64,000 nt of DNA from Dehalococcoidia bacterium (GTDB lineage: Bacteria; Chloroflexota; Dehalococcoidia; Tepidiformales; Tepidiformaceae), in assembly GCA_020850615.1 (NCBI GenBank), contig JADZEI010000004.1, forward strand, positions 1-64,000, written 5' to 3'. A program made the translations under genes and the position numbers. The notes beneath the pieces are model-generated. The model searched no databases, was not told the DNA's origin, and saw only the letters and a list, made by a program, of their open reading frames with translations. This document shows, one piece after another, positions 39,213-45,986 of this stretch (position 1 is its first letter; each line of letters begins with the position of its first letter).

Positions 39213-40253
39213 TCAGGTGTCCGGTGTGGGTACGACGGTAGCCGCTGCGGGTTGAGTGCCGGTGGATGCGGGGTTGCCCACGGGGCCTACCGGGTGACCA
39301 ATGTCCGCCGGGGGCCGCTCCCGCGCAGCCCGCAACGCCGCGTGGTACTCGATGTCGTAGACCAGGCTCAACGCCTTCACGGCCGGCCCGCTGAACCCGG
39401 CCCGCTGGAGCAACCGCGCTGCCCGCACGCCGGACCACCGGATCGCCGTCCGCGCGGCCGGCACGCCCCCCACCCGGCGCGCCAGCTTCGCCGGCAGCCC
39501 CCGGTACTCCGACTCCCGCTCGATGACCGCCAGCCAGCCCAGCTCGGGGTAGAACCGGTCCAGGACCACATCGAAGCGCGCGTACTGCCGCGGGATGTTC
39601 AACCAGCTCTCCAGCGACCGGTGCGCGTAGTGCCAGCCCACCGCCTTCGGTTCGAACACGAACCGGCACCCCAGCCGCCACAGCCGGTGCCCGAGCTCGA
39701 TGTCCTCCGCTCGCGTGAACCGCTCGTCGAACCCGCCCGCCGCGAGGATGTCCGCCCGGCGCACGAGCGCGTTCCCGGTGAAGAACTGTCGCCACGTCGG
39801 CTCGTACGCGCCCGCGCGCATGTTGGTGTATTCGCGCGCCAGCGTGCGCGCCTCCCACAGGTTCCACGGCGTCGGGCGCCAGTCCCGCGGCGCCAGCAGC
39901 GGCCCGAAGACCACGTTCCGGCCCTCGCTGCCCATCGCCCGCAACAGCGCCGCCAGCCAGTCCGCCGACGCGTCGACATCGTCGTCGATGAACGCGACGA
40001 ACTCCGTGTCCGCCGCCTGTACGGCCGCATTCCGGGCGCGCGCGGGCCCGCCGTTCCCCGCCATCCGCAGCACGGTGATCCGCAACGCCGCGCGCAGCTC
40101 CGCCGGGATCGAACCCTCCACCGGCGGCGTCGACCCATCGTCGACCACTATCACCGCGAAGCCCTGCACCGTCTGCGCCGCCAGCGAACGCAGCGTGCGC
40201 GCCAGCCGCGCGTGCCGGTTGAACGTCGGGATGACGACCGTTACGTCAACCAT
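39213..40253 (-). CDS. Glycosyltransferase family 2
   Basis: A 346-residue GT2 transferase. VTVVIPTFNRHARLARTLRSL, VVDDGSTPPVEG and the FIDDDVDAS triad are near residues 3-95, and the catalytic-base segment RFTRAEDIELGHRLW is near 175. The C-terminal 40 residues are Pro/Ala-rich. The ATG overlaps the end of the polymerase gene by 8 bp. Confidence 0.9.
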   Translation of the reverse strand: MVDVTVVIPTFNRHARLARTLRSLAAQTVQGFAVIVVDDGSTPPVEGSIPAELRAALRITVLRMAGNGGPARARNAAVQAADTEFVAFIDDDVDASADWLAALLRAMGSEGRNVVFGPLLAPRDWRPTPWNLWEARTLAREYTNMRAGAYEPTWRQFFTGNALVRRADILAAGGFDERFTRAEDIELGHRLWRLGCRFVFEPKAVGWHYAHRSLESWLNIPRQYARFDVVLDRFYPELGWLAVIERESEYRGLPAKLARRVGGVPAARTAIRWSGVRAARLLQRAGFSGPAVKALSLVYDIEYHAALRAARERPPADIGHPVGPVGNPASTGTQPAAATVVPTPDT

Positions 40254-41712
40254 CGCCGTCCCCCGTCCCGCGCTCCATGGGCAACAGCAGCGCCAGCGCG
40301 ACCAGGCACGCCAGCGGCACCGCGCTCCGCGGCGACACCAGCGCCAGGTCGATCCGCGCATAGCACAGGTACATCAGTAACCCCGCACCAACGATAGCGG
40401 GTTCCGCCGGGATGTCCCGCCACCGCGGCACCGAACGGCACGCCCGGATGCACCGCCCGAACGCGATCACCCACAGCCCGATGATGACCGACAGTCCAGC
40501 GATCCCCGTCTTCAGCCAGAGCCAGAGGATGTTCTGGTGCGGCGTGTACGACTGCAGCTCCCAGAACCACAGCTCCGGCAGCTCCCGGTACTGCGTGAAC
40601 GGCCGCCCGAAGCCCACGCCCATCACCGGGTCCTCCTGGAGCGTCCGCTGCAGGTTGTCCCGCTCGATTTCGCGGTACTCGTCCGAGCTCCGGTCGCGCG
40701 CATCCGGGTCCACCTGCGAGCGGATCGCCCGCGCCGGCTGCGCCAGCGGCCCGGTGTTCTCGTCCCAGTAGGCGCTCAGGTACGCGGCACCCGCCAGCAG
40801 ACCCACCATCGCCAGCGTCACCAGTAGCACCGGCCGCTTCGGCAGCAGCAGCCACCCCGCTGCCAGCACCCCCACCAGCACCACCAGGATCGCCGACCGC
40901 CGCCCCGTCATCAGCATCGAACCCGCCATCAACAGCCCGTACGCGACCAGCAGCACGCGTTCCCGGTCGCTCTTCGCCCGCAGCAGCAGCACCGCCGCCA
41001 CCACGAACCCCAGCGCGAGGAACAGCCCCGTCTCGTGCCCGAACCAGAACTCCGGCTGCACGGGCGACCGCCCCGGGTTCAGGTACAGCACCCACCGCCC
41101 CGCCGAAACCACGCCGAGCACCGCCGTCGCCGCAAGGAACGTCGCCAGCGCCTCGCGCGCCGTCACCCGAAGGCGCCACGTCACCACGAAGGCCGCGATC
41201 CCGAACAACAGCCCCCGCGCCTCGTGGTACGCGAGGTTCATCTCGCCGCCCTGCGAAACCCCGTAGGCCAGGCCCATCGCGATCGCGGGCGGCACGAGCC
41301 ACGCCACGCCCGGCAGCTGCGCCGCGCGCCGCTGCCGCACCGCCGGGTGCACCAGCACCACCACCGCCGCGAACCCCAACGCCAGCTCGAACGGGCTCGT
41401 CGTCAGCGGCAGCCGGTTGCTGATCCCCGCCGGCAGCTGCCAGAGCCCCTGCGGCATCACCTTCGCCGGGTCCACCTGCGCCGTGTCGACCGCGAGCCCG
41501 AGTGCCAGCAGCCCCAGCGCCGCCGCCCGCGGCCATCGCACCAGCACGAACGCCGCCACGCCCGCCACCGGCAGCGCCACCACCGCGGGCCCGGCCGCGG
41601 CCATCCCCAGCGCCGCGATCGCCACCACACCAACCAGCGCCGCCACGCCGATGGCCGGTCCGGTGCCCCCGGGCCATCCACGCGCGCGATACCGTGCGGC
41701 GGCGACGCTCAT
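40246..41712 (-). CDS. Wzy-like O-antigen ligase/polymerase family protein
   Basis: A 488-residue polytopic membrane protein with about 11-12 helices. Between late helices lies a large outside loop with a charged stretch (DPDARDRSSDEYREIERDNL begins it) and the Wzy_C-type motif SYTPHQNILWLWLKTGI. This is the only polymerase candidate in the locus and probably links lipid-borne repeat units outside the membrane. Its ATG overlaps the stop of a 48-residue membrane protein. Confidence 0.87.
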   Translation of the reverse strand: MSVAAARYRARGWPGGTGPAIGVAALVGVVAIAALGMAAAGPAVVALPVAGVAAFVLVRWPRAAALGLLALGLAVDTAQVDPAKVMPQGLWQLPAGISNRLPLTTSPFELALGFAAVVVLVHPAVRQRRAAQLPGVAWLVPPAIAMGLAYGVSQGGEMNLAYHEARGLLFGIAAFVVTWRLRVTAREALATFLAATAVLGVVSAGRWVLYLNPGRSPVQPEFWFGHETGLFLALGFVVAAVLLLRAKSDRERVLLVAYGLLMAGSMLMTGRRSAILVVLVGVLAAGWLLLPKRPVLLVTLAMVGLLAGAAYLSAYWDENTGPLAQPARAIRSQVDPDARDRSSDEYREIERDNLQRTLQEDPVMGVGFGRPFTQYRELPELWFWELQSYTPHQNILWLWLKTGIAGLSVIIGLWVIAFGRCIRACRSVPRWRDIPAEPAIVGAGLLMYLCYARIDLALVSPRSAVPLACLVALALLLPMERGTGDGDG

Positions 41713-41855
41713 CCGGCCTGCCCCAGTGCCAGCAGCACAGCGAAGATCGCGCCCACGCCAACGACCGCCAGCAGCGACTCCGCCGGGATGGCGGCCCGCA
41801 GCGGGCGCCAGGTCAGCACCGTGGCTAGCGCGAACAGCGCGGCGATCGCGACCAT
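41709..41855 (-). CDS. 48-residue two-helix membrane protein
   Basis: A short gene between the CpsD-like kinase and the Wzy polymerase. The ATG (41853-41855) lies one base after the kinase stop and its TGA overlaps the polymerase ATG (ATGA). The product has two hydrophobic helices (about residues 2-17 and 27-43) separated by RPLRAAIPAE. The perfect fit between its neighbours and the ATGA coupling argue that it is translated. It may be an assembly or regulatory subunit of the polymerase complex; I know of no family it belongs to. Confidence 0.72.
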   Translation of the reverse strand: MVAIAALFALATVLTWRPLRAAIPAESLLAVVGVGAIFAVLLALGQAG

Positions 41856-41856
41856 C

Positions 41857-42681
41857 TCAGTGGCGAAGGTCCAGCACGCGCTCCACCCAGCGCGGGATGG
41901 ACGTCTTGTCGCGGTTCACCACCACGCCCAGCACGTGCGCGTCGCGCAGCAGCGTGAGCACGCGCTCCAGCTCCGCCCGCGTGGTGTGCCCCGCCCGCGC
42001 GACGACGATGACGCCGTCGCAGCGCTGCGCGAGCACGGGCGCGTTCATCGATTCGAGCGCCGCCGGCAGGTCCAGAACCACGAACCCGCTCAACGACTTC
42101 AGGTGGTCGATGACGCCGCTGAGCTCGTTGCTCCGCGCCATCCGGCCCGCATCCTCGTCCGAAGTCCCCGCCGCCACCACGTTGAGCGGCGTCCGCAGGA
42201 AGCGATGCACCGCGGCCGGGAGCGGCACGCTCCCCGCGAGTACGTCCGTCAGCCCCTTCTTCCCTTCGAGCCCGTATTCCCGCGCCAGCGACTGCGTGCT
42301 GAAGTCCGCGTCGACCAGGGTCACCTGCGCGCCCAGGTCGGCCGCCAGCGAGCTCGCCAGCGCGATGGACAGCGTCGTCTTGCCGTCGCCAAACCCCGCG
42401 CTCGTCACGCCGATCGCCAGCGGTCGCGTGGCCGCCTGCGCCGACGGCCGCCCGTGCTGGGCCGCCGCCTGCGGCCGCATCCGCATCCGCAGCAGCGCGC
42501 CTCCCGGCAGCACCTCCTGCGTCCCGGCCTGCAGCCGTTCCGCGCCCACCGCCATGTCGAGCTCTTCGAGCGCGGCTCGCGGCTGGCGCAGCAACGTCAG
42601 CCCCGACATCACCTGGATCTCCCGCATCGCCTCCTGCAGGGCCGCGCGCGAACGTGGTTCCATCACCATCGCGGCGCTCAT
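41857..42681 (-). CDS. CpsD/CapB-type BY-kinase or ParA-like ATPase of the capsule system
   Basis: A 274-residue cytoplasmic ATPase. The Walker A loop is GFGDGKTT (Lys101 at 101), the Walker A' is LVDADFST, and VVLDLPAAL holds the Walker B position. It is separated from its membrane partner, the Wzz-like protein encoded directly upstream with a 4-bp overlap, as in Gram-positive CpsC/CpsD. The tyrosine-rich C-terminal tail used for autophosphorylation is absent; the protein ends ERVLDLRH. Confidence 0.86.
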   Translation of the reverse strand: MSAAMVMEPRSRAALQEAMREIQVMSGLTLLRQPRAALEELDMAVGAERLQAGTQEVLPGGALLRMRMRPQAAAQHGRPSAQAATRPLAIGVTSAGFGDGKTTLSIALASSLAADLGAQVTLVDADFSTQSLAREYGLEGKKGLTDVLAGSVPLPAAVHRFLRTPLNVVAAGTSDEDAGRMARSNELSGVIDHLKSLSGFVVLDLPAALESMNAPVLAQRCDGVIVVARAGHTTRAELERVLTLLRDAHVLGVVVNRDKTSIPRWVERVLDLRH

Positions 42682-43727
42682 CGCAGCTCACCCCCGGCCC
42701 GCTCCGGCATCGGTGTCAGCGATGTCGCCACGCCCCGGGCGTAGTCGTCGCGCCGCCGGAACGACGGCAACCGCAGCGCGCGCATCACCAGCCGCTTGCG
42801 TGGGCGCAGCTCCGGCACGAACCCGAGCACCGGCGCTCCCAGCCCGCGCAGGTCCTCGGACGAGCGCACCGTGTGGTCGGCCCGGTAGCAGATGTACAGA
42901 TATGCCGTCGCCGCCACCAGCCCGAGGAACAACCCCGCCGCCGGGTACGCCAGCTTCGATGTGAGCGACGGCGTGAGCGGCGCCGCCGGCACGTCCGGCG
43001 CGTCCTGCACCACGAACGTCGAGAGCTCGGTCGAACCGGAGATCGTCTCCAGTTGCGTCGCCTGCAACGAGGCATTCAGCCGGTCCACCACGTTCGTCTG
43101 GGCGTCCACCTTGCTCTTGAGCGCGAGGTAGTCCGCGTCCACCGTCGCCGGGTCCGTCGCCGTCGGGTGCGTCTTCACGTAGCTCGCCAGCTCCGCCTGC
43201 AGCTTCGAAAGGTCCGACTGCGCGGCTGCGAGCTGCTTCTGGAAGTAGTCCAGGACCACGCCCGCCTGCCGGTCCGTCTCGGCCTCGAGCCGCAGCTGGT
43301 ACTGCGCCAGCACCGCCTCGACCATCTTCTGCGCCTCAGTCGCGTTCGAAGTCACCGCCGTCACACCGAGCAGGCTCGGCCCCAGCGGCGAAACCCGCAC
43401 CGCCCTCCCGACCCGCCATGCCGCGTGGTCCAGGTCCGCCGCCGCCGCATCCACCGCCACCAGCCCGGCCGCGACCGCGACATCGGTCCGGAAGGCGGTC
43501 GTCGCGAGCAGGTCGCTCAGCACCTCCGCCTGGCGTTCCGACGCCGTCTGGTCGCTCGAATTGCTCTGCTCCTGCGTCTGCAGGTCCGAAACCCACACGC
43601 GGGCGGACGATTCGTACTCTACCGGCGTGTCCACCAGCAGGGACCCCACGACCGGCAGGATCAGCACCGGCGCGAGCAGCACGGGCCATCGCCGGAAGAA
43701 GGTCTCGACGAGCTTGCGGGGGATCAC
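42678..43727 (-). CDS. Wzz-type chain-length determinant / CpsC-like protein
   Basis: A 349-residue membrane protein. Helix 1 (about residues 12-32) and helix 2 (about 262-285) flank an extracytoplasmic coiled-coil region with QKQLAAAQSDLSKLQAELASY. A cytoplasmic tail of about 60 residues follows. It probably sets polymer length together with the kinase encoded next. The start GTG at 43727 has TGGAG 6-7 nt upstream. Confidence 0.87.
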   Translation of the reverse strand: MIPRKLVETFFRRWPVLLAPVLILPVVGSLLVDTPVEYESSARVWVSDLQTQEQSNSSDQTASERQAEVLSDLLATTAFRTDVAVAAGLVAVDAAAADLDHAAWRVGRAVRVSPLGPSLLGVTAVTSNATEAQKMVEAVLAQYQLRLEAETDRQAGVVLDYFQKQLAAAQSDLSKLQAELASYVKTHPTATDPATVDADYLALKSKVDAQTNVVDRLNASLQATQLETISGSTELSTFVVQDAPDVPAAPLTPSLTSKLAYPAAGLFLGLVAATAYLYICYRADHTVRSSEDLRGLGAPVLGFVPELRPRKRLVMRALRLPSFRRRDDYARGVATSLTPMPERAGGELR

Positions 43728-43780
43728 ACATCACTCCAGGGCGGCCGGCTGCCGCGCTCAACCGCATCGTCACCAGCGCG

Positions 43781-43800
43781 GGTGGAGCGATGGTTGAGGG
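43781..43800 (-). promoter_or_regulatory. Recurrent exopolysaccharide-locus motif, copy C
   Basis: The minus-strand reading is CCCTCAACCATCGCTCCACC, 54-73 nt upstream of the chain-length gene start. A further TCAACC lies next to it. Confidence 0.4.
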
Positions 43801-43882
43801 TTGAGTGCATTCCCGGGAGCATCTGTAACCCTCCGTATACCGCCCGTGCGCCCCCTGGACACCTGCACCAGCGACAGGCCCC

Positions 43883-43922
43883 AAAACGCGCAGAACGCCT
43901 GATCTCACAATCGGCGTTCTGC
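43883..43922 (-). terminator. Rho-independent terminator after the phosphoglycosyltransferase
   Basis: On the minus strand GCAGAACGCC (43913-43922 reversed) pairs with GGCGTTCTGC (43890-43899), with an inner GAT/ATC extension, then GCGCGTTTT at 43883-43889. It ends the transcript of the ugd and sugar-transferase genes. Confidence 0.7.
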
Positions 43923-43947
43923 AGCGTGTCGAGTAGTGGGGAGTGCC

Positions 43948-44652
43948 CTAGCAGGAGCCGCTCCCGGTCAGCACGGTCGTCACCGTCCGCAGCAGGATCT
44001 TCACGTCGAGCAGCGGGCTCAGCTCACGCGCATACCGCAGGTCCAGCGCCACCATGTCGGCGAAGTCGTGGTGCCCCCGCAACGTCACCTGCCAGAGCCC
44101 CGTGATGCCCGGTACGACCACCAGCCGCTGCAGGTGCGGCAGGTCGTAGCGGATCACCTCCGCCGGGATCGGCGGCCGCGGGCCCACCAGGCTCATGTCG
44201 CCGCGCAGCACGTTCCAGAGCTGCGGCAGCTCGTCCAGGCTCGTTTTGCGCAGGAACACCCCCACCCGCGTCCGCCGCGGGTCGTCCTTCATCTTGAAGA
44301 TGTGGCCGTTCGCCTCGTTCTGCTCCATCAGCTGCCCCACCAGGCGGTCCGCACCCGTGTGCATCGAACGGAACTTCCAGCAGGTGAACAGCTTCCCGCC
44401 CTTGCCCACCCGCGTCTGGCGGTAGAACGGCCCGCCCCGGCTATCGAGCATGACCGCCAGGCTCACCAGCGCGAACAGCGGCGCCAGGAAGAGGATCCCG
44501 AAGAGCGCACCGGCGACATCGGCGCCGCGCTTCCAGGCCGGCATCGGCACGAGCTCGTCCGAAAGGAGCTCGGCCAGGGTGAGCCCCTCCGCCTCCACAG
44601 CCGGGACCTGGAGGACGGCGGGGCGAGGAGCAAGAGCAGCTCGCGCGGTCAT
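43948..44652 (-). CDS. Initiating sugar-phosphate transferase (bacterial sugar transferase family)
   Basis: A 234-residue monotopic phosphoglycosyltransferase. A membrane segment (about residues 46-68) follows a soluble N-terminus; the conserved core shows FYRQTRVGKGGKLFTCWKFRSM, KTSLDELPQLWNVLRGDMSLVGPRPP and PGITGLWQV. It transfers a sugar-1-phosphate to undecaprenyl phosphate, the first step of repeat-unit synthesis. It lacks the long N-terminal helical domain of WbaP-type enzymes. ATGA overlap with the dehydrogenase gene. Confidence 0.93.
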   Translation of the reverse strand: MTARAALAPRPAVLQVPAVEAEGLTLAELLSDELVPMPAWKRGADVAGALFGILFLAPLFALVSLAVMLDSRGGPFYRQTRVGKGGKLFTCWKFRSMHTGADRLVGQLMEQNEANGHIFKMKDDPRRTRVGVFLRKTSLDELPQLWNVLRGDMSLVGPRPPIPAEVIRYDLPHLQRLVVVPGITGLWQVTLRGHHDFADMVALDLRYARELSPLLDVKILLRTVTTVLTGSGSC

Positions 44653-45986
44653 GCGTGCACCCCTTCCAGCGCGGGCGCCAGCGCCGGGCCTTCCGCGCCC
44701 GGCCGCCCCACGCAGCGGTAGTCGAATCCAGCCGCCCGCACCGCGAGCGGGTCGAGCACGTTCCTGCCATCGACCAGCACCCGCCGGGCCATGCCTTCGC
44801 CCAGCCGGGCGAGGTCCATGTGGATGAACTCCGGCCAGTCCGTCGCCACCACGACCGCCGTCGCGTCCTTCGCCGCTTCCTCCACCGAGCCCGCGACCGT
44901 GGCCATCGGCACCAGGTGGTTGAGCCGCGCCGCCGGCACGACCGGGTCGTAGATCGCGACCGACGCCCCTTCGAGGAGGAGCAGCTGCGCCAGCTCCAGC
45001 GCCGGCGACTGCCGCGTGTCGTCCGTGTTCGCCTTGAACGCCGCGCCGAGGATCGCGACCCGCTGGCCTTCCAGCTCGCCCAGCGCCCCCCGCAGCTTCG
45101 CCACCGCCCGCAGCCGCTGGTCGCTGTTGATCTCCATCACCGACCGCAGGAGCTGCGGGTGCGCGCCGTGGATCGCCGCCATGTGCGCCAGCGCCTTCAC
45201 GTCTTTCGGGAAGCAGCTCCCGCCCCAGCCGAGGCCCGCCTTCAGGAACTGCCCGCCAATGCGGACGTCCATCCCCATCCCGTGCGCCACTTCCGCGACG
45301 TCCGCCCCGAGCGCCTCGCAGATCGACGCGATCTCGTTGATGAAGCTGATCTTCGTCGCGAGGAACGCGTTCGATGCGTACTTGATCATCTCCGCCGTGC
45401 GGATGTCCGTGCGCTGGATGACCGGCTCGAGCGGCGCGTAGAGCGACGCCACGCGCTCGATCGCCTGCGGGTCATCCGAGCCCAGGACCACCCGGTCGGG
45501 CTGCATGAAGTCCCGCACCGCCGAGCCTTCCCGCAGGAACTCGGGGTTCGAAACCACCGAGACCGGCCCCCGGCCCGCCCGGCCCGCCATGCCCGCGACC
45601 AGCTCCCCCGTGCCGATCGGCACCGTGCTCTTGTTCACGATGATCGAGCCCGGCCCCAGCCGTGCCGCCACGCTGCTCACCGCGTCCCGCACCCAGCGGA
45701 TGTCCGCCGCGCCCTCCGAGGACTCGGGCGTGTTCACCGCGATGAACACGATCTTCGCCTCGAACTGGTCCGGGTACTCGTCGAGAAAGTGGAGGCGCCG
45801 GCCCTGGATGCCCTTTTGGATCAGCGGCTCCAGCCCCGGCTCGTGGATCGGGCTCCGCCCGCTGCGCAGCAGCGCGATGCGGTCCGGGTCCGTGTCGACA
45901 CAGTCGACTTCGTGGCCGAGCTCCGCAAAGCACGCGGCCGATACGGCTCCGACGTAGCCACATCCAATAACAGCGATCCGGGTCAT
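44649..45986 (-). CDS. ugd: UDP-glucose 6-dehydrogenase
   Basis: A 445-residue UDP-glucose/GDP-mannose dehydrogenase. The NAD fold starts with VIGCGYVGAVSAACFAELGH. The catalytic cysteine is Cys258 in GGSCFPKD; the VNKSTVPIGTG and SNPEFLREGSA motifs are intact. The VVATDWPEF ending and neighbours favour UDP-glucose. It provides UDP-glucuronate, which the 18544 enzyme could turn into UDP-xylose. AGGAGG lies 6 nt before the ATG. Confidence 0.94.
   Translation of the reverse strand: MTRIAVIGCGYVGAVSAACFAELGHEVDCVDTDPDRIALLRSGRSPIHEPGLEPLIQKGIQGRRLHFLDEYPDQFEAKIVFIAVNTPESSEGAADIRWVRDAVSSVAARLGPGSIIVNKSTVPIGTGELVAGMAGRAGRGPVSVVSNPEFLREGSAVRDFMQPDRVVLGSDDPQAIERVASLYAPLEPVIQRTDIRTAEMIKYASNAFLATKISFINEIASICEALGADVAEVAHGMGMDVRIGGQFLKAGLGWGGSCFPKDVKALAHMAAIHGAHPQLLRSVMEINSDQRLRAVAKLRGALGELEGQRVAILGAAFKANTDDTRQSPALELAQLLLLEGASVAIYDPVVPAARLNHLVPMATVAGSVEEAAKDATAVVVATDWPEFIHMDLARLGEGMARRVLVDGRNVLDPLAVRAAGFDYRCVGRPGAEGPALAPALEGVHA

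Follow-up and report, generated by a model that had tools for sequence, protein, structure and literature searches.

A conserved gene for a small two-helix membrane protein beside wzy in polysaccharide loci of Chloroflexota

Organization of the polysaccharide locus

The sequence considered here (the window) is a stretch of 64,000 nucleotides from the 4.17 Mb genome of a Dehalococcoidia bacterium (contig JADZEI010000004.1). It carries a polysaccharide cluster on the minus strand which, in reading order, encodes an initiating sugar transferase with a Bac_transf domain (43948..44652), a Wzz-like chain-length protein of 349 residues (42678..43727), a CpsD/MinD-like ATPase of 274 residues (41857..42681), a small protein of 48 residues (41709..41855) and a Wzy-type polysaccharide polymerase of 488 residues with a Wzy_C domain (40246..41712). 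The small gene fits closely between its neighbours: the ATPase stop codon (TGA, 41859-41857) is separated by a single base from the small-gene ATG (41855-41853), and the small-gene stop codon (TGA, 41711-41709) overlaps the wzy start codon (ATG, 41712-41710) as ATGA, so that the coordinates, frame, spacing and overlap given in the preliminary description all agree with the sequence. The predicted product is MVAIAALFALATVLTWRPLRAAIPAESLLAVVGVGAIFAVLLALGQAG. No clear Shine-Dalgarno-like stretch precedes its ATG, and coupled translation of the small gene is therefore likely. From 41500 to 44800 the sequence shows neither a sigma-70-like promoter nor a terminator-like site, which is consistent with a single operon, although such absence carries little weight in a G+C-rich genome. 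The genome has a second, diverged cassette of ATPase, small gene and wzy some 200 kb further along the contig (contig C4, ~242670-244830; loci L023 and L070); it has its own 48-residue small gene and a Wzy that is 41% identical.

The polymerase belongs to the Wzy_C/O-antigen ligase family on the basis of both its match to Pfam PF04932 (62.4 bits against a cut-off of 31.7) and its WaaL-like predicted fold. Residues 58-480 of the AlphaFold2 model (pLDDT 90.7) cover residues 5-407 of the ligase WaaL (7tpg_B; Z 21.2, 367 aligned positions, rmsd 4.6), the next-best fold matches being SEDS polymerases (Z 11-14), and the model has an additional N-terminal helix beyond the WaaL-matched core. At two loci from two f2 genomes (G141 and G302; L113 and L114) Wzy begins ~50 residues later and does not have this helix, although the small gene is kept. 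The Wzy reading frame of genome G720 is 978 residues long (L163:49-2982, minus strand) and includes a long extension at the C-terminal end.

The ATPase matches three P-loop Pfam families above their cut-offs and contains the motifs GDGKTT and DADF, as expected of a CpsD/MinD-type P-loop ATPase domain. It had been called a kinase in the preliminary description, a label that is doubtful because the C-terminal tyrosine cluster is absent (there is no tyrosine in the last 45 residues) and its scores against the tyrosine-autokinase NCBIfam models fall below the curated cut-offs; a role in assembly is the more cautious label. The last 45 residues are likewise free of tyrosine in 58 of 71 homologues, none of which has more than two. 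Across the phylum, CpsD-like ATPases without the tyrosine cluster often end in P-x-W (for example IPRW or VPGW). The Wzz-like protein gives only a weak Pfam match (PF02706, 14.5 bits against a cut-off of 25.5, E 0.046) and is identified mainly by its position.

Conservation and architecture of the small protein

Direct searches with the 48-residue protein detected the same open reading frame, identically placed, in three further genera and, as a weaker match, in another polysaccharide cluster of the genome that contains the window. At the eight homologous loci first read, a 48-residue two-helix frame occupied the slot in every case; seven of these proteins, including the second one from the same genome (C4:244124-244267), align without gaps, and most share a PSES-type loop motif. 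Such searches reach close family members only, and the remaining loci were reached through Wzy, by a profile search, first of 393 genomes from the class and next of 400 from the phylum, and by reading the DNA upstream of each member. The profile delimits one Wzy subfamily, whose new members in the phylum search score 239-384 bits; no other match exceeds 64 bits.

This subfamily is present at 82 distinct loci in Chloroflexota, and a short two-helix frame with a basic loop, nearly always of 41-50 residues, lies directly upstream of wzy at 76 of them. At two further loci the slot at first seemed empty and the small gene adjoins the ATPase away from wzy, a glycosidase-like gene lying between small gene and wzy in G682 and the two being on different contigs in G425. 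Three loci are cut by contig ends (G024, G542, G582), and only in G600 was a Wzy of the subfamily found with no detectable small gene. In several clusters (L151, L160, L168 and L179) a glycosidase-like gene adjoins either wzy or the small gene and may precede or follow the latter. Outside the phylum, the subfamily was detected in 2 of 198 sampled actinomycetotal genomes, both with a 47-residue small gene in the slot. No small gene precedes the divergent wzy genes at four Myxococcota loci and one Firmicutes locus, no small frame lies upstream of weak Wzy matches (E ~1e-8 to 1e-5), and no two-helix frame occupies the slot at 19 loci read for ATPase relatives from Acidobacteriota, Myxococcota and other groups. 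Searches of viral contigs with Wzy, and a plasmid search, returned no match.

A detector requiring a frame of 40-50 residues with two hydrophobic windows was positive at 72 of 79 junctions, compared with 0 of 79 antisense sequences, 0 of 79 sequences taken 500 nt further upstream, and 3 of 1580 shuffled ones. Purifying selection on the amino-acid sequence is indicated by a pooled pN/pS of 0.27 (pS 0.50, pN 0.13) over 44 close-relative pairs, which share sequences and so are not independent, and which all come from other genera because the sequences related to the window have diverged too far; in one such pair (L153/L157), 81% of synonymous but 11% of nonsynonymous sites differ. The frame, whose non-conservation in relatives had been named beforehand as the outcome that would speak against a gene, is thus maintained by selection across the phylum. 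The 48-residue frame is a real gene and represents a microprotein family that is widespread and undescribed; the gene is kept beside wzy across Chloroflexota and in some Actinomycetota. Sequence divergence is high, some members being less than 15% identical to the window protein, and a single common origin is for this reason argued from slot and architecture.

The two hydrophobic helices described previously are evident in the window protein (TM1 ~2-16 and TM2 ~28-45, flanking a basic loop with a PAES motif at 17-27) and represent an architecture shared across the loci. Among 68 members the helix cores are nearly free of charge, lysine and arginine are gathered in the loop, and 52 have a glycine at the end of TM1. 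An AlphaFold2 prediction made with the 68 sequences gives, at moderate confidence for the small protein alone (mean pLDDT 75), a helical hairpin (residues 2-15 and 25-47) with a short loop helix between. Since the loop is basic, the positive-inside rule suggests that it probably faces the cytoplasm. The window protein has no Pfam match and scores 10.5 bits against NCBIfam, below the cut-off of 19.9; the 68 members give scattered weak Pfam matches only, and sequence and fold searches of the PDB returned chance-level similarities (EGFR transmembrane segment, E 0.005; cytochrome bo3, E 5.6). The earlier view that the gene had been overlooked therefore holds in part, namely for the curated Pfam and NCBIfam libraries, in which no family covers it.

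Association with Wzy or with the ATPase

Several loci separate the two neighbours. In G141 the small gene and wzy are present with no ATPase before them, and in G720 and at one G718 locus the order is Wzz, small gene, wzy with no ATPase between; conversely, in G682 and G425 the small gene has remained beside the ATPase, apart from wzy. Co-evolution was assessed by a mirror-tree comparison of small-protein, Wzy and ATPase distances over 34 loci. The rank correlation was 0.71 for small protein and Wzy and 0.38 for small protein and ATPase. The partial correlation with Wzy given the ATPase was 0.65 (0 of 500 permutations), that with the ATPase given Wzy 0.03 (p 0.33); the ATPase matrix is possibly the noisier of the two, and when Wzy was cut to the length of the ATPase alignment the values were still 0.59 and 0.06. 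Wzy is favoured as the partner because of the loci without an ATPase, this co-evolution and the lack of the gene before distinct but related Wzy proteins.

The most probable reading, put at about 0.62, is that the microprotein is a dedicated accessory hairpin subunit of one Wzy subfamily. The small subunit of the polymerization machinery proposed from gene position alone is thereby supported, with position, co-occurrence and co-evolution pointing to Wzy, and it would be a physical subunit acting on polymerization. A less likely proposal is that it serves the ATPase as a membrane adaptor, the polymerase being merely a neighbour. The CpsD-like ATPase is soluble, with no membrane segment of its own, and could dock on the loop if this is indeed cytoplasmic; the small gene usually starts 1-30 nt after the ATPase stop codon and stays with the ATPase in the two genomes where wzy is separated. 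Against this, the gene is kept at loci with no adjacent ATPase, and the correlation with the ATPase vanishes once Wzy is accounted for. All of the partner evidence would be accommodated if the hairpin contacted Wzy and its loop reached towards the ATPase. An action on Wzz is improbable but has a precedent in RmpD of Klebsiella pneumoniae, a small membrane protein (49-58 residues) that binds Wzc and alters the chain length of the capsule (PMC10294653), and Wzz is encoded in the neighbourhood; RmpD, however, combines a single transmembrane helix with a charged tail, whereas the present family has two helices and no tail.

It is very improbable that the hairpin was split off from the polymerase and provides helices missing from Wzy, an idea invited by a hydrophobic product encoded directly before and overlapping wzy, and by the later Wzy starts in G141 and G302. 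The structural alignment leads to its rejection, since the modelled Wzy already covers WaaL 5-407 with an N-terminal helix to spare and its core is complete, and no fused form was seen. Least credible of all is a non-functional frame or mere translational spacer: the frame is short and tightly packed and lies in G+C-rich DNA, where spurious frames are many, but selection on the amino acids, conserved length and architecture, and the clean controls contradict it.

Possible role and known small partners

For the accessory-subunit reading, coupled translation would most likely yield the small protein immediately ahead of Wzy, and the hairpin, usually of 41-50 residues with two short helices, would sit against Wzy in the membrane. 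There it may stabilize the polymerase, or connect the cytoplasmic side of Wzy with the chain-length apparatus of Wzz and ATPase. A bolder and rather tentative extension holds that no polymerase of this subfamily works as a single protein: each would have an obligate hairpin microsubunit, conserved phylum-wide and common to some Actinomycetota, whose loss would leave the enzyme unstable or inactive, or would uncouple it from the control of chain length.

The nearest functional precedent is RmpD, which is encoded in the rmpADC locus and consists of one N-terminal transmembrane helix and a charged C-terminal domain (PMC10294653). Both are small membrane proteins of Wzx/Wzy-pathway machinery with diverged sequence and conserved architecture. 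They differ in that the present proteins have a basic loop between two hydrophobic helices and no C-terminal domain, and in that the partner of RmpD is Wzc, whereas the family described here occupies a fixed slot before wzy and is tied to Wzy. SEDS polymerases, glycan polymerases with a fold related to that of the window Wzy, also work with smaller membrane partners (FtsW with FtsI/FtsQLB; RodA-PBP2). These partners are larger than the window protein, mostly single-helix and carry periplasmic domains, and no sequence relation to it was found. The window Wzy shares fold and family with Wzy_EPS (NF041870) and with WaaL (7TPG), but Myxococcota loci with related Wzy proteins have no small gene. 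The small proteins are filed as a new family within a known kind, the small accessory membrane proteins of glycan assembly.

The main text of a 2025 review of Wzy (PMC12004945), which treats Wzy with Wzz as a known complex and lists no solved Wzy structure, contains neither 'small protein' nor 'accessory', and no small partner gene of Wzy was found described there or in the open-access literature searched. A small partner conserved at almost all loci of a single Wzy subfamily would add a new component to the Wzx/Wzy pathway and, if confirmed, could ease the purification and structure solution of these polymerases. Curated libraries would then also be lacking a model for a gene family that is carried by an entire phylum.
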